Shown: piece after piece, positions 2,824 through 64,000 of the stretch
Position numbering within the stretch: the stretch's first letter is position 1
Layout of the letters: the number at the start of each line of letters is the position of its first letter
Assembly: GCA_004293915.1 (NCBI GenBank)
Contig: RDZG01000069.1
Span: forward strand, 1 to 64,000
Direction: 5' to 3'
Source of the DNA: Bacteroidota bacterium
GTDB taxonomy: Bacteria; Bacteroidota; Bacteroidia; Cytophagales; UBA9547
Length of the DNA stretch: 64,000 nucleotides
Notes under the pieces: model-generated
What the model saw: only the letters and a program-made list of their open reading frames with translations
The model's database searches: none
What the model was told of the DNA's origin: nothing
Translations under genes and position numbers: made by a program

Positions 2824-3087
2824 ATGGTTTATACTGATATTATACTAATGATACTTACACTTGGAATATCATTTTATATTGCACTGCATTATGAATATGA
2901 AATTAAACAAGAAAAAAAATGGGTAGAATTTGAAAAGAAAATTTTTGAAATGCTTGAATCTGAAAAAATAAGAGAAGAGCAAAAAGAAGCCTACAATCAA
3001 ATTTATTTGGATATGAAAAAAAATAGAGAAGAAACCGAAACTTGGATTAAAAACTTATTCAAAATAAATAATTTGAAAATTGACTAA
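2824..3087 (+). CDS. Small membrane-anchored coiled-coil protein
   Basis: 87 residues. Residues 3-21 (YTDIILMILTLGISFYIAL) form an N-terminal membrane helix, followed by a highly charged Lys/Glu-rich helix (about 27-80) with coiled-coil character. It sits three bases downstream of the 25-residue membrane peptide and shares its promoter. Its stop overlaps the convergent recombinase gene by four bases. No family is recognised; the pairing suggests the two small proteins work together at the membrane. Confidence 0.6.
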   Translation: MVYTDIILMILTLGISFYIALHYEYEIKQEKKWVEFEKKIFEMLESEKIREEQKEAYNQIYLDMKKNREETETWIKNLFKINNLKID

Positions 3088-4199
3088 CCCATTTTTTTCA
3101 AAATACCATCTATCTGAATATCAGAATAATGTTTGAGTGTGATGTCTATTTTTTGATGCCCTAGCATATCGGCAATAGTTCGCCTATCGAGACCTTTCGA
3201 TTCCCAAAAGTTGGCAAATGTTTTTCTGCCACTATGTGTAGTGATGTTTTTTGAGATACCTACCATTTCGATAACGTTTTTGAGATAGGTATTGTATTTT
3301 TGAAGCGAAATCAACGGCAGCGAATTGCCATATTTTTGCCATATCGTTTGAGCCTTATCAAAAAGTGGCAATACATAGCGTGAGCCTGTTTTTTCTCGAA
3401 AGCCCTCGATGTAAAGTGTGGTTTGATGCGATTTTATAAACTCAGCCTTAAACTCTTTCATGGTGCTGTAATCCATGCCGGTATAACATTGCCACAAAAA
3501 CAAATCTTTGACACGCTGCAAACTGGGTTGAACCACATTAAAATTTTCTAAATCCGCAAGCTCTGTTAGTGTAAGGTATATTTTGGGTTTGGCTTTTGTA
3601 GGTAAATACTCTACATACAACAGCGGATTGTCTTTTATATGCCCTAATCTATGAGCGTGTTTGATAACCGAACCAAGGGCTTGTATGTTTTTGTTGATAT
3701 AAACCGATGCGTATTTTTGAGTAATTAGATAATCTTTGAACCGCTCAGTAAAAGCCATATCTACATCGTTTATTGCTATTTTCTCATTTTTGAGAAACTT
3801 TAGATATTCCTGCATGTTGTTTTTTCGTGTGATATAGGTTTGAACCGTTCTAAATTCTTTTTCCTGCTTTCTTTTGTGTTCAATAAGTTGTTCGTAAACA
3901 TGAAATAAAAGTACTGGAGGTTTGGCAGAATTGAGATACATATCTTTGAGCGATTCTGGCGAATAATTTTGCTCAGCCAAATCCATACCATTTTTGATTT
4001 CAAATATTTTATTTTTTATTTTTTCGATTTCTCTTTGCAAATAAAATGTAGTAGAAAGCTGCAAATCTTGATTCCATTCTGTGGGGTTGCACTTAATACC
4101 CGTGCTAAAATCCACACATTTTTGTTTTCCAATTGTGAAATAGCAATATATTGTACGTTTTCTAAGCCAAAAATAAATATTAAAATGTTGGTTTTGCAT
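3084..4199 (-). CDS. Tyrosine recombinase / integrase of a genomic island
   Basis: 371 residues with the Bacteroidota integrase layout: N-terminal arm domain, SAM-like core-binding domain (about 90-190) and C-terminal catalytic domain. Catalytic residues seen are THSGR (His and second Arg, about residue 320), LGHQKI (His) and HYSDI (nucleophile Tyr near 358). The position that normally holds the first Arg reads TGMDYSTMKEF, so Arg is replaced by Asp; the Bacteroides integrase IntDOT is known also to lack this Arg. The gene starts 184 bp from the 3' end of tRNA-Pro, the usual arrangement for an element integrated into a tRNA gene. It is probably the enzyme that inserted the 1-4380 island. Confidence 0.9.
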   Translation of the reverse strand: MQNQHFNIYFWLRKRTIYCYFTIGKQKCVDFSTGIKCNPTEWNQDLQLSTTFYLQREIEKIKNKIFEIKNGMDLAEQNYSPESLKDMYLNSAKPPVLLFHVYEQLIEHKRKQEKEFRTVQTYITRKNNMQEYLKFLKNEKIAINDVDMAFTERFKDYLITQKYASVYINKNIQALGSVIKHAHRLGHIKDNPLLYVEYLPTKAKPKIYLTLTELADLENFNVVQPSLQRVKDLFLWQCYTGMDYSTMKEFKAEFIKSHQTTLYIEGFREKTGSRYVLPLFDKAQTIWQKYGNSLPLISLQKYNTYLKNVIEMVGISKNITTHSGRKTFANFWESKGLDRRTIADMLGHQKIDITLKHYSDIQIDGILKKMG

Positions 4200-4700: not shown

Positions 4701-7700
4701 TTATAAAAATGAACTACACCAATGGCATTTCTCATCGTTGCAACCCGTGTAAAAATCGTGATTCATTATTTTTATATAAGTATCTTTAATTTGATTTTTT
4801 ACAATTTCTTCATCTTCGGGTGTAACCACAATTTTATGTTTAACAAAGTTGTTGTCTTTATCGGGTTGCAATAAATCTATTTCACCCGAAACCATGTGCC
4901 AATCTTGGTTTTTATTGTTATCTATCAATAATTTATAAAATACAATTTGACGCCAATAATCTCCACCATGTAATTTTTCAAAAGTTGATGTTTCATCTGC
5001 ATCAGCATTTGGACGTATTAATTTCTTTTTCGCATTTTCTGGTTTTCCCGTTTTATAGTCAATTACATTTACTTCGTTTCCTCTCTTTTCTATTTTGTCA
5101 ATTTTGCCTGTGATTGGAACTTCATCTAATAACACAATAGAAAAATCGTATTCTGTTTCCACATTTTTTTCCCATGTATTAATATAATTTTCATAATAAA
5201 GCGGCAATATTTGTTCGGCATATTCTTTTTTGAGCAAATATTCTTCTTCGGTAAAATGCGAAGCATAGCGTGTTAGACCCAAATTAAAAAAGTACTCAAA
5301 ACGTTCCAAAGTTGGAAATTGTTTGTTCCAATCTGCTAACATGGCTTTAAAAAACTGGTCGATAGCATAGTGGTAAGCATTTCCAAACGCAGCATCGGCT
5401 GTTCGAGCAGTTGGTATTTTGAGTATATTTTCAAAATAAAATGTAAGTGGGCAACTTAAATATTTGCTCAAATGCGTAACACTTAATTTATAATTTCTCA
5501 AAACTTGATTGATATGCGATTTTTCGTATGCTTCAATCACTGGTTTAGGACTTTCAGCAAGTAGCATAATCAAAAATTCTGCCATTTCTTGATTTTTAAC
5601 TGTTTTACTAACAGGCAAAATACCTGCTTTATCTATCAATTCTTGAATAAATTGTGATTTTTCTAAAGTGCCTTCTTTTATATCTTTATCGCTGGTTTTC
5701 ATCACTGGATACGATAAAAATATTTGCTCCTTTGCACGAGTCATTGCCACATAAAACAACCTGCGTTCTTCTTCAATATCTTTTTTAGAAATATCAAACT
5801 CGTCAATTGGTGGGAATTTAATTTGTTCTCCTTTTGTACTTTTTTTCTCCCACGATTTGCTTTCGCAATTAATTAAATAAACTGTTTTAAACTCCAATCC
5901 TTTGGAAGAATGTGCAGTTATAAAATGTACTCCAGCCTCTTGCGAAACAATTTGTTCTATTGCAAGTTCAACTCCATTTTCATTCATTTTTGAAATCATA
6001 CTCAAAAACTGCGTAAGTGTAATTTCAGGATTTTTGACCGATTCTTCTTTTAAAAAATCAAAAAAACTTGTTAATGTTTGTAGCAAAAGTATTTTTTCGG
6101 AAGATTTTAATATATAGTTAATCAACTTTAAATCAGTTAATAACTTTTCGAAAACAACTTGTAAAGTATGATTATGAACATTTTTAATTCCATTTTCGAT
6201 TGCAAAACTCAATGCCAAAATTTCTTTTTCAGACGAAATAGAAAGCTTTTGCATTTCGGCTTCGTTTGCTAAAAACGTACGCCATTTGAGTTTATTGGCT
6301 GCAATATGAAGGGCAATTTTTGAAATATCATTTGTATTAATATTGAAAAAGTCAAAAAATAAGGCTTTAGAAATAATGAAATTACCACTTTCAAAAGCTT
6401 GATTTTCGGCATCGATATAACTCAAAATAGCTGTTAATTTCTTAATAAAAGGCGTTTTGAGTATATTTAGTCTTTTTCGAATGTTATATGGAATTTGTTT
6501 TTGGTCGAAAACTTTTATAATTTTTTCAACATCTTTTTTATTGCGGTATAAAATGGCAATTTCGTTCAAATCCTCCCCATTATTTTTTTTGTTTTCGATT
6601 TCAAAAGCAATATCAGCAGCTTCGTGAAAGGCATTATTATAGGCTCTAATTTCGATTTCGTTGGTTTGAATTTGTTTTTTTGAAACTAAATTTTTTGCTA
6701 ATTTTTGTCCTTGTTTTTCAAAATTATCAATCAAATTAGTATCAAGAACTAAGCGAGTAATATTATGTTCAATAGAAGCTTTGCTTGCATCCAAAATTGC
6801 TTGTGTGGAGCGATAGTTTTGTGTTAAAACTATTGCTTTTAAATTTTCATTATATTGAGCTACAAATTGTTTAATACGCTCGTTTTCAGCACCTTGAAAA
6901 CTATAAATGGACTGGTCGTCATCGCCTACGACAAATAAATTTGGGTTATCTTCCCAAAAAGATACCAACAAACTCAAAATTTTATTTTGGGAGCCATTTG
7001 TATCTTGAAACTCATCTACTAAAATATACTGAAATTGTTCTTGATAACGAGCCAAAAGATTTTCATGTATTTCAAAAGCATTGATTACCCAGTGAATCAT
7101 ATCGTTAAAATCATATCTTTCGGCTTTTTTCATTTTTTGTTGAAAAACAGGAAAAAGCAAAACCGCATCTATAAACTTTTCTATTTTTTTGGTTTCCTCT
7201 AAAACAAGGCGTGGATTTGCATCTCCTTTTTGATATTCTTTTGTATTTCGTTTATATTGGTATTCAGGAATATCAGGCAACGATTTTATGTATTCTTCGG
7301 CTTGATAAATCAAATCTTCGGGTACATAATTTTCTTTTTTAATGGTTTCAAATAATTTTTTTAATGCGATATAAGCAGAATAAATATTACCCGTATATTT
7401 TTTAAAACGATTGCCAGCAGGTAGATTGTTTATTAAATCATAATAAACATCTATGGTTTCGAGTTCTGAAATAGGCTGCAAATCCTGACTATCGCCAAAA
7501 TACTGCCTATTATCTTGAATAATGGTGTTACAAAACGAGTGAAAGGTATAAATATGTACTTTGTATGCCTCAGCACCAATAAATTCTGACAAACGTTTTC
7601 GCATTGCAACAGCACCAGCATCGGTATAAGTTAGGCATAAAATATTGTGTGGAAAAATGTCTGGAATTTGTAATATTTTACCAATTCGGAGCGAAAGAAT

Positions 7701-23069: not shown

Positions 23070-23915
23070 ATGAGCAATATAATCGAAGATTTGAAAAATT
23101 CATTTAACCGTACAGGCAACGGTTCTGGCAACGAAGTTATATATGCTCAAATCACATCATTTCTTTTTTTGCCCGCTTCGTTTCAAGAATTTATTTACAA
23201 ACCTTGGACTATTTTAACTTATGCTATTTCGCACGAAGGTTTTTTTCATATTCTTTTTAATATGATTTTTATGTATTGGTTTGGGATGATTATTACTGAA
23301 TTTATAGGTTCAAAACGATTTATTAGTTTATATATTTTAGGTGCTTTAGCTGGAGGAGTTACATTTTTACTAATGTTTAACACAATTCCTTTTTTTATGA
23401 ATATGCCAAATGTTCCACTTTTAGGTGCTTCTGGTGGGGTATATGCAGTAGTTGTAGGTGCTGCCGTTTTATTGCCTGATTATACATTTTATTTGCTTTT
23501 TCTTGGACCTGTTCGTATAAAATACATAGCTGCTTTTTATGTTTTTCTATCTTTTGCCGAAAGTATTGGACAAAATGCTGGTGGCAATTTAGCTCATTTG
23601 GGAGGTGCTTTAATGGGTTTTGTATTTATTTGGCAATTGCGAAAAGGCAACGATTTAGGGAAACCTTTTTCGTGGATGGCAACTGGAGTTGCAAACTTGT
23701 TTAAACCCAGTTCAAAAATTAAAATTACGTATCGCAATCCAAATCCAAAATCAAGTTCGGTAACAAATAATTCATACTCAAATTCGTCTGACAAAGAAAT
23801 TTCGCAAGACGAACTTGATGCTATTTTAGATAAAATTTCTAAATACGGCTACGAAAAACTAACCAAAGAAGAAAAACAAAAACTTTTTAAAGCCAGCCAA
23901 AGTGCTGATATATAG
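23070..23915 (+). CDS. Rhomboid-family intramembrane serine protease, second of two
   Basis: 281 residues. Motifs are HEGFFHILFNMIFMYWFG, LLGASGGVYAVV with the catalytic Ser, and NLAHLGGALMGF with the catalytic His. A cytoplasmic tail of about 70 residues follows the last helix and ends QDELDAILDKISKYGYEKLTK, a helical motif common to Bacteroidota rhomboids. The last 47 bases of the gene are duplicated at 24548-24594. Confidence 0.92.
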   Translation: MSNIIEDLKNSFNRTGNGSGNEVIYAQITSFLFLPASFQEFIYKPWTILTYAISHEGFFHILFNMIFMYWFGMIITEFIGSKRFISLYILGALAGGVTFLLMFNTIPFFMNMPNVPLLGASGGVYAVVVGAAVLLPDYTFYLLFLGPVRIKYIAAFYVFLSFAESIGQNAGGNLAHLGGALMGFVFIWQLRKGNDLGKPFSWMATGVANLFKPSSKIKITYRNPNPKSSSVTNNSYSNSSDKEISQDELDAILDKISKYGYEKLTKEEKQKLFKASQSADI

Positions 23916-23988
23916 AATAATAAAAATACTTTTTTATTTTCTCAAACCTTTGGCAATCAGCATTTTACGTATTTTATTTACAAAAAAA
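23869..23988. repeat. 120-bp direct repeat flanking the PBECR gene, copy 1
   Basis: Starts inside the end of the second rhomboid gene and runs into a copy, on the minus strand, of the last codons of the MTHFR-like gene (reading IRKMLIAKGLRK then stop). It is about 94% identical to 24548-24667: a few substitutions and two single-base indels. The true MTHFR-like gene end lies in copy 2. Confidence 0.9.
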
Positions 23989-24005
23989 TGTATCCATCTT
24001 TGAAA

Positions 24006-24013
24006 TATATTTG
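24006..24013 (+). promoter_or_regulatory. Promoter of the PBECR-like gene
   Basis: TATATTTG within the inserted unit, eight bases before ATG 24022, so the insertion brought its own promoter and the message has a very short leader. Confidence 0.6.
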
Positions 24014-24021
24014 TAATTAAA

Positions 24022-24450
24022 ATGATTGAAAAAATAAAAGCATTAGTCGAATTTGCTAAAAACAGCAAAAACGCTATAAATTCAAAATTACAAATTAGCA
24101 TAATTGAACAAAAAGAAGCAGAATTTTTAGAATTAAAAACTGGAATTAAATTGTTGGGTTATAAAAGAGTTATTGATAAATTTGGTATTAATCATACATT
24201 AAAAAATCATGGAAATGCTAAAACCGAGGCTTTACGCGGTCAAATAGCAATAACTGATATCGATTTTGAACTTATTCCATTAATAGTGCTTTCTAAAAAT
24301 GTTATTCATACAAGTAAAAATAATATGGGAAATGATTTGATACTTTATGAAGCTATAATTGAAAATACATTTTATTATGTGGAGGAAGTAAGAAAAGGAA
24401 AAAAAGAATTATGTATGACTACAATGTACAAAAGAAAACCAACCATTTAA
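24022..24450 (+). CDS. Standalone PBECR-like nuclease domain protein
   Basis: 142 residues. GINHTLKNHGN, ALRGQIAITDIDFELIP and YYVEEVRKGKKELCMTTMYKRKP match the phage-Barnase/EndoU/ColicinE5-D/RelE-like (PBECR) nuclease domains known from the polyvalent proteins of phages and conjugative elements. There the domain is one module of a huge protein; here it is alone, with its own promoter and terminator and no phage genes nearby. The unit (23989-24547) lies between 120-bp direct repeats and is clearly inserted. A toxin or defence role is possible but unproven, and no antitoxin gene is visible beside it. Confidence 0.65.
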   Translation: MIEKIKALVEFAKNSKNAINSKLQISIIEQKEAEFLELKTGIKLLGYKRVIDKFGINHTLKNHGNAKTEALRGQIAITDIDFELIPLIVLSKNVIHTSKNNMGNDLILYEAIIENTFYYVEEVRKGKKELCMTTMYKRKPTI

Positions 24451-24466
24451 TTAAAATAGTTGGTTT
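24436..24466 (+). terminator. Hairpin overlapping the PBECR stop codon
   Basis: AAACCAAC (24436-24443) pairs with GTTGGTTT (24459-24466) and spans the stop codon at 24448-24450. Confidence 0.55.
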
Positions 24467-24547
24467 AAAATCAACGAGTTATGCTCAATTTCACCTACTC
24501 CTTACGTCCAAAACGTATTTTGATTACACAAATATACAATATCTTAT

Positions 24548-24667
24548 AAGAAAAACAAAAACTTTTTAAAGCCAGCCAAAGTGCTGATATATAGAATTGA
24601 AAAATACTTTTTTATTTTCTCAAACCTTTGGCAATCAGCATTTCACGTATTTTGTTCACTAAAAAAA
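24548..24667. repeat. 120-bp direct repeat flanking the PBECR gene, copy 2
   Basis: Begins with a copy of the last 47 bases of the second rhomboid gene and continues into the real 3' end of the MTHFR-like gene. Together with copy 1 it shows the original junction was about 120 bp and has been doubled around the insertion. Confidence 0.9.
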
Positions 24668-25544
24668 TTGAAGCTTCAATTTCTTCTTTTCTTATAGCTA
24701 CCGATTCGATATTAAACCCAAAAGGGATTGATTTTGAATGGCAATAATTAATTAATTCATCGGCTATTTCGATACAAATATCCAGCGATTGAGCCAAAAT
24801 ATTTTCTGATTGTAGTAGTTTTTGCTTTTGTGTTTCAGGGATATGTATGCCCAACCATTCCATAAATTCCAATGTTTTTGCCGAACCACATGCAGTAAGT
24901 GTAAAAATTAGCGTAGGAATTTCTCTGTTTTTAGTTGTACACGTTTTTTGTAAATCTTCTAATACTTTTTTTGCATAATCGACATTGAAAATACATTGAG
25001 ATATGAAATAACTCACACCAGAATTCATTTTATCTAAAATTCGCACATCTTCGTCTTTCAAAACTGCATGGCGTTCGGGAATCATAACTGCACCAATGGC
25101 AGTTGTGTTTTTGTGTTTGCTCCAAAGTGCATAAGCCTCTGGCAATGTGGTTTTTACCTTAAAATCAGGCGAAGGCAGACCAACAAAAACAGGATGAAAA
25201 TTATTTTTTTCTATTTTTTCGAGCCATTCGGTAAGTTCTTCTTTCGAGAATTTTCCGGCAGGTCTGTATATTATTTTTTCTAATTTTAGTGGGTTTAAAT
25301 GAGAGCTGGCAAAATCCAAAGGATCGAGCGCACTCATAAACGGGAAAGGTCTTTCTTCGCTTGTTCGTGCCGATTCGTCTTGCACATCGTACACAACCAA
25401 GGCATCTAAATCTAAATTATATAATCTTGTTAGGGTTTTTTCGGCAATTTCAACTACTTTTTCGGGCAATGTTTGCGATTTTGGAGGAGTAATACCATAA
25501 ATCAATATACCAGACTCTCTTTGTTTTATTTTAGATAAGAACAT
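24612..25544 (-). CDS. Methylenetetrahydrofolate reductase-like protein
   Basis: 310 residues. ILIYGITPPK at the start, LDALVVYDVQDESAR, GAVMIPERH and SGVSYFISQCIFNVDYAKKVLEDL follow the MetF (beta/alpha)8 barrel order with FAD-type phosphate contacts, but similarity to E. coli MetF looks distant. It probably belongs to the divergent MTHFR-like group seen in Bacteroidota. The reaction, reduction of methylene-tetrahydrofolate, is inferred. The 3' end lies in the duplicated 120-bp repeat but the gene is intact. Confidence 0.75.
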   Translation of the reverse strand: MFLSKIKQRESGILIYGITPPKSQTLPEKVVEIAEKTLTRLYNLDLDALVVYDVQDESARTSEERPFPFMSALDPLDFASSHLNPLKLEKIIYRPAGKFSKEELTEWLEKIEKNNFHPVFVGLPSPDFKVKTTLPEAYALWSKHKNTTAIGAVMIPERHAVLKDEDVRILDKMNSGVSYFISQCIFNVDYAKKVLEDLQKTCTTKNREIPTLIFTLTACGSAKTLEFMEWLGIHIPETQKQKLLQSENILAQSLDICIEIADELINYCHSKSIPFGFNIESVAIRKEEIEASIFLVNKIREMLIAKGLRK

Positions 25545-61968: not shown

Positions 61969-61977
61969 CTTTATTAT

Positions 61978-62092
61978 ATGGTTTTATACCTATCATTTTT
62001 ACAATCCGAAATTCCGCACCCTTTCCCAGCATATTCTTTTTGGGAATACTATATAAAAAAGAATTAAGGAGTCCAGGCATGAATGGGTGTCA
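61978..62092 (+). pseudogene. 5' fragment of a glycosyltransferase gene
   Basis: MVLYLSFLQSEIPHPFPAYS then WEYYIKK match the start of the intact gene at 62907, with a frame change near codon 28 and homology fading after EWV. DNA identity is high in the middle (49 of 51 bases over 62011-62061). The rest of the gene is missing here; an FkbM gene lies between the fragment and the intact copy. Confidence 0.8.
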
Positions 62093-62145
62093 TTTTTAAA
62101 GAATTATTATAAAGCAGGTTAATCTCTACTTAAAATAAGTCCCAA

Positions 62146-62910
62146 ATGAACATATTAGCAAAAATTATAAATTCAATAGAGTTTAGGCTTAAATACTATT
62201 TTAAGCATAAAGGAAGAAGAAATGAATTAAAAAATACGATAGCAGCTAAGCTTTCGATCGCAGAAATTGACTCATTAGAACTTCTTCAAATTTGCAAAGC
62301 CGAAAGCATTGATGTCAAATGTATATATGATATTGGTGCGAATATTGGTACATGGGCAATGCTTGCAAAAGCAGTATTTCCGAGTGCAAGTTTTGAATGT
62401 TTTGAGCCATTAAATTTACACTTTTCTGATTTTGAAAAAAACACAAAACTTCTTCAATATATTCATTTACATAAAGTTGCATTAGGAAACACGAACGCAT
62501 TTCTTAATTTAAACATAACTTCACAATCCGATTCATCAAGCATTTTACAACTAACAAAATTACAAACTGATGTATTCGGTATTAATAAAATAAAGGAATC
62601 GCGAGTCGAAGTAGTGATTTTAGATGATTATATACTTAAACATAATATTGCATATCCCGATTTAATGAAACTTGATGTTCAAGGCTTCGAACTTGAAACA
62701 CTCAAAGGAGCAAAAAAATGTATGGCGTATTGCAAATTTATAATATTAGAAGTAAGTTTTGTTGAGTTTTATGTAGGACAGCCATTGTTTGAAGAAGTAA
62801 TTAATTTCATGTTTGAAAACAATTTTAAAGTAGTTTCTTTTGGATTTAATACAGCTACCGGCATTAAAATTTCTCAAACAGATATATTATTTAGAAACAA
62901 AAATATATGA
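62146..62910 (+). CDS. FkbM-family methyltransferase
   Basis: 254 residues. YDIGANIGTWAMLAKAVFP (SAM motif I), FECFEPLNLHF and LMKLDVQGFELETLKGA. Third FkbM-type gene of the locus. It lies in a segment bounded by the truncated and the intact copy of the same glycosyltransferase start, so it was probably placed there secondarily. Confidence 0.88.
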   Translation: MNILAKIINSIEFRLKYYFKHKGRRNELKNTIAAKLSIAEIDSLELLQICKAESIDVKCIYDIGANIGTWAMLAKAVFPSASFECFEPLNLHFSDFEKNTKLLQYIHLHKVALGNTNAFLNLNITSQSDSSSILQLTKLQTDVFGINKIKESRVEVVILDDYILKHNIAYPDLMKLDVQGFELETLKGAKKCMAYCKFIILEVSFVEFYVGQPLFEEVINFMFENNFKVVSFGFNTATGIKISQTDILFRNKNI

Positions 62911-64000
62911 TAGTATATCTCTCTTTTTTTCAATCTAAAATTCCGCACCCTATCCCAGCATATTCCTTTTGGGAATACTATATAAAAAATGGCATCAAAG
63001 AGGCTGGATATGAATGGGTAGAAGGCGCAGTAGATTGGGCAGAAGGATTAATGTACAGTTTTGATAAGGCAAAGCTAAATACTTGGAAAGCAGAAACCTG
63101 GACAAAAACTTTGGAAGATATAAAGGAAAAACATACGAAATCTCCAGTTTCTTTATTTCTAAGTTATCTATATCCACATCAGGTAGATGAACTAGCAATA
63201 AAAGAAATACAAAAATTAGGTATTCCTTGCGTAAATTTCTTCTGCGATAATGTGAGAGAGTTTACTAAAGCACCTAAAGAATTTAAACCTTTTGATCTGA
63301 ATTGGGTGCCAGAATTCAAGGCACTAGAAATGTACAAAAAAGTAAATTATAACTTTATTCATTTACCTATGCCAATGTGGGTCGCTCCTCAATACCGTAA
63401 AATTTCGACTTTAGAAACAAATAATGTTTCATTTATTGGGTCGAAAGATATACAAAGGTGGATGCTTTTTGAAAATTTAGCTAATAATCACAAATTTGAA
63501 ATCCAAATAATGGGTTCTGGTTGGCAAGATAAATCTGAAAGTAAAGAATCAATAAAAATTCAAAACACTCGTTTACAAACTATCAAAAATCAATTTGATT
63601 TTATTACAAAATTTGGATTATCGGCTTATTCACGAAAATTACAACAAAGAAATATTTCGTTACAAAATTCAAATCAACTGCAGAAACTCATTCAACAGAA
63701 ACCTGATTTTGAGAAATATATTCAAGTAACTAAAGAAAGTATGGTTACACTCGGAGTAAACAGATATCCAAGTTATTTGTATCCGTTGGAACAAGCCAGT
63801 ACCTACTCCAGGTTACGTGACATTGAGGCTCCAATGTTAGGGGCATGTTACTTAACGGAATATACCGAAGGTTTAGAAAGTTTGTATGATATAGGAAATG
63901 AAATAGAAGTTTATAAAAATGGCAATGAGTTGATAGAAAAGATCAAATACCTTGCTTCAAATTCTTCAAAAAGGAAAGACTTTAGAAGAAATGGACAGGC
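62907..64000 (+). CDS. CgeB-like glycosyltransferase, cut by window end
   Basis: Open from ATG 62907 (overlapping the FkbM stop) to the last base, 364 codons without a stop. IPHPIPAYSFWEYYIKNGIK, DNVREFTKAPKEFKPFDLNW and the C-terminal YPSYLYPLEQASTYSRLRDIEAPMLGACYLTEYTEGLESLY match GT-B glycosyltransferases of the CgeB/Glyco_trans_1_2 type. The 3' end lies beyond the window. Confidence 0.8.
   Translation, partial: MIVYLSFFQSKIPHPIPAYSFWEYYIKNGIKEAGYEWVEGAVDWAEGLMYSFDKAKLNTWKAETWTKTLEDIKEKHTKSPVSLFLSYLYPHQVDELAIKEIQKLGIPCVNFFCDNVREFTKAPKEFKPFDLNWVPEFKALEMYKKVNYNFIHLPMPMWVAPQYRKISTLETNNVSFIGSKDIQRWMLFENLANNHKFEIQIMGSGWQDKSESKESIKIQNTRLQTIKNQFDFITKFGLSAYSRKLQQRNISLQNSNQLQKLIQQKPDFEKYIQVTKESMVTLGVNRYPSYLYPLEQASTYSRLRDIEAPMLGACYLTEYTEGLESLYDIGNEIEVYKNGNELIEKIKYLASNSSKRKDFRRNGQ

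Follow-up and report, generated by a model that had tools for sequence, protein, structure and literature searches.

A predicted RNase gene and a convergent structured RNA between two copies of a host junction suggest a tiny module that moves without a transposase

In type III toxin-antitoxin systems the RNA antitoxin is made of tandem repeats encoded upstream of the toxin in one transcript, and integron gene cassettes consist of a single gene followed by a folded element, form arrays and carry toxin-antitoxin cargo. Insertion with long target duplication was reportedly described by Nobusato et al. in 2000. The process is already in print for restriction-modification units, in Helicobacter pylori, and has had its name since 2000, and the passages of these papers that deal with it name no enzyme (PMC3874152, PMC1643837, PMC3154945). 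The PBECR domains, which occur both within phage polyvalent proteins and solo in phages, are predicted to be metal-independent RNases and have a first-helix histidine and a C-terminal Thr or Ser in five of the six families; the parts of that paper that present these domains describe no partner RNA (PMC5512222).

The window, by which we mean the whole stretch of 64,000 nucleotides that was analyzed (positions 1 to 64,000 of contig RDZG01000069.1 of a Bacteroidota genome, assembly GCA_004293915.1), contains a direct repeat at 23869-23988 and 24548-24666 (120 alignment columns, 94.2% identity, spacing 679, E ~1e-45 within the window). We consider it somewhat probable (about 0.6) that the DNA between the two copies is a self-contained RNase and RNA module, placed between a rhomboid gene and an MTHFR-like gene by long target duplication. 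The occurrence of the same pair between other doubled pieces of host DNA in related bacteria points to a very small toxin-and-RNA module, mobile without a transposase. The features of the locus are as follows.

23070-23915, plus strand: rhomboid gene, left flank (Rhomboid and DUF6576)
23869-23988, no strand: direct repeat, copy 1 (left), with the native rhomboid 3' end and a remnant of the MTHFR-like 3' end
23989-24547, no strand: insert of 559 bp between the repeat copies
24006-24013, plus strand: promoter-like TATATTTG upstream of the RNase gene (from sequence)
24022-24450, plus strand: solitary PBECR3 (PF18812) gene, predicted BECR-fold RNase of 142 aa (Pfam E=8.2e-19, 68.1 bits, cut-off 30)
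24436-24468, no strand: hairpin with T runs on both strands (RNA fold), taken as the terminator common to both convergent genes
24468-24526 (about), minus strand: structured small RNA, found with model R1, which was built without this sequence
24529-24536, minus strand: promoter-like TATATTTG of the RNA, 21 nt upstream of its core motif
24548-24666, no strand: direct repeat, copy 2 (right), with a remnant of the rhomboid 3' end and the native MTHFR-like 3' end
24612-25544, minus strand: MTHFR-like gene, right flank (Pfam 23.7 bits, just below the cut-off of 24, and relatives)

A sequence-only reading had proposed that a 559 bp unit sits in a doubled 120 bp junction, with the rhomboid end and an MTHFR-like remnant in the first copy and the reverse in the second, and both the alignment of the repeat and a check of the two native ends in relatives agree with this. 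The true rhomboid stop, at 23915, lies inside the left copy, and the rhomboid C-terminus aligns to its end in two genomes of the same genus (G001 and G002), where the loci were read and this end occurs once. The MTHFR-like C-terminus can be aligned to residue 303-309 of 310 in the genomes of four relatives. Because both ends are native, the repeat represents doubled host DNA. The initial 50 bp of the two copies are identical, and every mismatch falls in their middle or right part. No relative among the 59 genomes searched (this genome included) shows a second copy of the junction, nor did tandem junctions lacking the gene, the alternative named in the sequence-only reading, turn up there. The MTHFR-like gene is absent from G001 and G002, and an exact empty site, with a single junction, both neighbours and no insert, was therefore not found in the relatives searched. 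Neither a transposase-sized ORF nor a terminal inverted repeat is present in the insert, as had been claimed, and a transposon or insertion sequence was rejected on these grounds. The claim that the duplication far exceeds those of ordinary transposons also stands, at 120 bp here and likewise around other members of the PBECR3 family. A prophage remnant was rejected in view of the single PBECR3 ORF and of the phage and plasmid collections, in which PBECR3 has distant matches only (two phage records and one plasmid record). No close relatives were found in viral and genome contigs.

The insert comprises two convergent genes, the PBECR3 RNase gene and an RNA on the opposite strand with its own promoter-like box, which have a common terminator; the earlier description of a unit with one gene, promoter and terminator stands as regards a gene unit between host junction copies and is wrong as regards the number of genes, the second being the convergent RNA gene. 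The TATATTTG box upstream of the RNase gene is presumably a Bacteroidetes -7 type promoter motif. In an alignment of 19 sequences inspected by eye, the protein has both the histidine and the C-terminal Thr, and the active-site histidine and the C-terminal Thr or Ser are mostly kept in it and in related solitary PBECR3 proteins. A single-sequence structure model is poor (pLDDT 42), and a search of a defence-system library gave no match to the RNase. There is no second PBECR3 copy to be found in the genome. PBECR3 has matches at E 1e-3 in 19 of 291 genomes of the order, and matches in 4 of 395 genomes of a class sample (this one included) and in 6 of 13 genomes of the family to which genome G085 belongs. 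We examined 21 loci with a solitary PBECR3, one of which (L046) is a near-identical copy of another (L030).

A conserved element is present 3' of the solitary PBECR3 genes on the opposite strand, and consists of a TAnnTTTG box, which we take to be a Bacteroidetes-type promoter-like box, a gap of 16-31 nt, a core like CGTTTnGGACGT, hairpins and a terminator. At this locus the RNA has a P1 helix (24520-24526 with 24468-24474), the core CGTTTTGGACGT, a P2 and a short P3. A core expression, loose and composed after the sequences had been seen, matches 20 of the 21 solitary loci, 18 of them with the box at the right distance. Among 300-nt windows downstream of control ORFs the core alone matches 6 of 298 in a sample from the own genome and 12 of 279 in a G085 sample (18/577 in total), and core plus box matches 1/298 and 0/279, the single match being this locus. 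The box is present at 19 of 20 loci, against 0.27 expected from shuffling (with the L034 position set by hand and L046 excluded). An RNA model from six sequences excluding this locus (R1), with a structure that we drew from the same sequences, detects the RNA here with a score of 25.7 bits (E=1.1e-4 when 90 kb are searched, 9.9e-4 when 806 kb are). Across 20 solitary loci it places the RNA correctly at its six training loci and at L048, L055, L029, L054 and the own locus (E ≤0.03), and reaches L031 with E 1.3, while the remaining eight go undetected; at eight further loci, whose PBECR3 domain belongs to a longer protein, R1 finds no RNA.

A second model (R2), built from ten sequences including this one and run with search filters stricter than a full search, detects the RNA, at E 0.05, in 16 of the 291 genomes. 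Covariation was evaluated on 23 distinct matches, 21 from R2 together with L034 and L037, which are outside both training sets. Paired cells amount to 88.6%, compared with 60.3% after shuffling and a maximum of 51.5% when the structure is slid, with none of 500 shuffles as good, and there are 82 double-change cells compared with 25.1 in shuffled alignments, counts that lean towards the model because the alignment was fitted to it. All 13 pairs change on both sides, and P1 is paired in 94.7% of cells. Five RNAs (at L028, L029, L031, L047 and one in L059) have a different inner part in common and form a second subtype; a pattern search for this subtype was discarded, with as many matches in the control as among the real sequences. 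No Rfam family scored over its gathering cut-off at the 15 loci searched, and the element is, from its predicted fold and conservation, a previously uncatalogued structured RNA. We note that the RNA 5' region and promoter (24513-24535) resemble the right end of the repeat (23967-23989 and 24645-24667). The resemblance has p=0.002 at the own locus, p=0.002 at L052 and p=0.03 at L140; it is not significant in six of nine units, and we do not count it as evidence.

Direct repeats recur around members of this family. Comparison of 600-nt flanks, with a line drawn at 50 bits, gave a direct repeat of at least 50 bits at eight of the 20 testable solitary PBECR3 loci (own, L027, L029, L030, L046, L047, L048 and L051) and none of that strength at the other 12; L052 has a weaker one (27 bp, 36.5 bits), and L028 is too close to a contig end for the test. 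Small genes in the same genomes provide a control. In the own-genome sample nine of 161 are repeat-bounded at 50 bits, including the own locus and altogether three units of this window, and some are plain gene duplications, and in the G085 sample the number is four of 128, three of them from one duplicated-gene cluster. Leaving the own locus and L046 out of the PBECR3 set and keeping the own locus in the control, 6 of 18 PBECR3 loci are repeat-bounded compared with 13 of 289 small genes (p=2.9e-4). Since ordinary genes in these genomes are also repeat-bounded (13/289), the insertion process is not specific to the module. We measured eight units (own, L027, L029, L030, L047, L048, L051 and L052, the last included despite scoring below 50 bits, and L046 omitted as a copy). 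All eight, which were picked for having repeats, enclose precisely PBECR3 and the RNA with 30-219 nt to spare; the inserts are 529-773 bp, the gene-plus-RNA pairs 499-562 nt and the repeats 27-181 bp. The L027 repeat holds the 3' end of the upstream gene, and that at L029 is located at the start of a gene that we take to be thiL by its sequence. At the loci where they are readable the repeats are, judging from their sequence, target (host) DNA, and the gene and RNA pair is therefore the apparent moving unit.

In two instances the units are clustered. At L057 (G085:C34:222000-236000) two PBECR3 genes lie in an array of units split by related direct repeats of 40-110 bp, the other units including a type ISP restriction enzyme, two nucleotidyltransferase-HEPN pairs, two PIN genes, a ParE-like gene and a DUF433 with a DUF5615. 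A PBECR3 unit at L058 (G147:C36) is in a similar array, in which one long repeat is present several times. Such arrays would be the outcome of repeated insertion at a single place.

The window contains two further repeat-bounded units. At 1454-2717 a perfect 51-bp direct repeat, consisting of a terminator and a promoter, surrounds ORFs 1500-2018 and 2015-2665, the second with a weak likeness to the PADLOC candidate PDC-S70; the flanking genes appear by eye to be split-transposase-like (249-1398) and tyrosine-recombinase-like (3084-4199). At 61975-63019 a 116-bp direct repeat of 82% identity surrounds an FkbM-type methyltransferase gene (62146-62910), and its second copy is the 5' end of the next gene. 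Elsewhere in the genome, on contig C2, a 67-bp, 85% direct repeat surrounds a Zeta-toxin-like gene and a second ORF (L071:268-1914).

The best explanation for the locus is that the 559-bp two-gene module would have inserted without a transposase of its own, doubling 120 bp of target, and that every such insertion would add the unit and one copy of a 27-181 bp target. The repeat would arise together with the insertion, for example through fill-in of a double-strand break with widely staggered ends or through template switching in repair. We infer this order of events, rather than duplication first, from the recurrence of the arrangement. Doubling of the junction before the module entered the spacer, or a chance duplication followed by decay, is improbable: repeat-bounded genes are not rare in this genome (9/161 of the small genes at the 50-bit line, plain duplications among them), but the PBECR3 enrichment (6/18 vs 13/289), the tight fit of the unit in 8/8 cases and the lack of tandem junctions in relatives all argue for a repeat made with the insertion. 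We also regard it as rather unlikely that the repeat was made by homologous (Campbell-type) integration of a circle carrying the module and one junction, excised elsewhere between its own repeats. Such an exchange is easy once a repeat-bounded unit exists, and it would accommodate copies that differ by 6% with all the differences in one part; a divergent donor is nevertheless expected to spread differences across the whole repeat, and the proposal only shifts the question, as the first insertion still had to create a repeat. Nothing was found in favour of an assembly artefact, which is scarcely credible for copies that differ by 6%, at a locus well inside a 77-kb contig and with a pattern that recurs in other genomes.

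The succession of a gene and a folded element, and arrays with repeats between units, also bring to mind a dedicated cassette system like integrons or RNA-guided transposons, with cassettes inserted by an enzyme acting in trans and the folded RNA gene, or its DNA, serving for recombination or as a guide, and the likeness of the RNA 5' region to the repeat (p=0.002 for the own locus, 0.002 for L052 and 0.03 for L140) would fit. We think this very improbable, as six of nine units have no such resemblance, the repeats are host DNA where read and unlike from locus to locus, one nucleotidyltransferase-HEPN unit of the array is too tight to hold the RNA, and the conserved core is internal rather than at the element ends. 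Insertion of the RNase and RNA pair with long target duplication is thus the explanation that we prefer.

As to what the pair does, the RNase would be toxic and the RNA would restrain it by binding, as RNA antitoxins do, so that the pair would persist and spread like a toxin-antitoxin module. Restraint through binding is the most likely role by analogy with ToxIN and with AbiF and its RNA. The RNA also occurs apart from PBECR3. Ten of 21 strong R2 matches (E 1e-3 or better) are convergent to PBECR3 and 11 are not, and a six-frame search at E 0.5 found no PBECR3 near those 11, with PBECR3 remnants seen only beside two weaker RNA matches (L154 and L158). At L140 the RNA is convergent to a DUF416 gene and the pair lies within a 62-bp, 97% direct repeat; at L157 a HEPN gene ends 121 nt from the RNA, and at L151 an ORF without a Pfam match ends 70 nt from it. 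A convergent ORF of 70 aa is lacking inside 200 nt at eight of the 11, and flanking repeats of more than 50 bits are present at two (L140, and L147, where genes are duplicated). In L059 an RNA of the second subtype (5307-5396) is convergent to an operon of two proteins of 175 and 138 aa without Pfam matches, and its promoter region coincides with the left repeat copy that bounds the adjoining PBECR3 unit.

These lone RNAs could be antitoxins on their own, remnants or products of an independent RNA gene. It is possible, if on the unlikely side, that the RNA serves the RNase as substrate, sensor or regulator, or that it comes from an independent, selfish gene which merely travels with several genes, as its 11 of 21 strong matches without PBECR3, its pairing with DUF416 in the 62-bp repeat at L140 and its position convergent to another operon in L059 might indicate. 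Arguing for the antitoxin role instead are its near-universal presence at solitary PBECR3 genes, the failure of R1 to find it at the eight long-protein PBECR3 loci and the fact that lone antitoxins are common in known systems. We put forward only as a long shot a class of tiny cassettes, mobile without an enzyme of their own, with the RNA as the fixed component and the protein gene (PBECR3, DUF416 and others) as the exchangeable one, in which the RNA might both keep the cell dependent and aid insertion, leaving long target duplications and then arrays.

An RNase with a convergent RNA was not found as cargo in the literature searched, and solitary BECR-type RNases with a conserved, covarying RNA opposite them would make up a new RNase module under RNA control. 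Modules of ~0.5 kb that recur between target duplications also offer many natural replicates with defined boundaries. As for known systems, the PBECR RNases are presented in the sections on them by Iyer et al. 2017 (PMC5512222) mostly as parts of phage polyvalent proteins and solo in phages, whereas those described here are solitary chromosomal genes with a convergent structured RNA. Type III systems such as ToxIN and CptIN, as their published outlines have it, share a predicted RNase with an adjacent structured RNA; here a single RNA domain, convergent at the 3' end and behind a separate promoter-like box, takes the place of tandem repeats in one transcript. AbiF and the RCd22 RNA of C. difficile are likewise a toxic protein and an associated structured RNA, there neutralizing by direct binding, but according to the account of the protein (PMC12373285) AbiF is a phage-borne Abi_2 protein related to Cas13 ancestors and not a BECR protein. 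Integron cassettes share the gene and folded element, the arrays and the toxin-antitoxin cargo; here, in contrast, the repeats vary by locus and are host target DNA where read, rather than a cassette-owned recombination site that is the same at all insertions, and the folded element comes with a promoter-like box of its own and has its conserved core inside. The closest correspondence is with insertion with long target duplication. The 120 bp repeat consists of the ends of two native host genes, repeat lengths vary from 27 to 181 bp in the eight PBECR3 units, and the unit contains no transposase and no terminal inverted repeats; the cargo is PBECR3 and an RNA and not a restriction-modification system, and we treat cargo as descriptive rather than defining. 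In the published descriptions of that process the shared elements are a transposase-free unit and variable direct target duplications of ~100 bp, and the locus described here differs in its RNase and RNA cargo, in its mostly AT-rich genomes, and in being one recurring family found partly in arrays.
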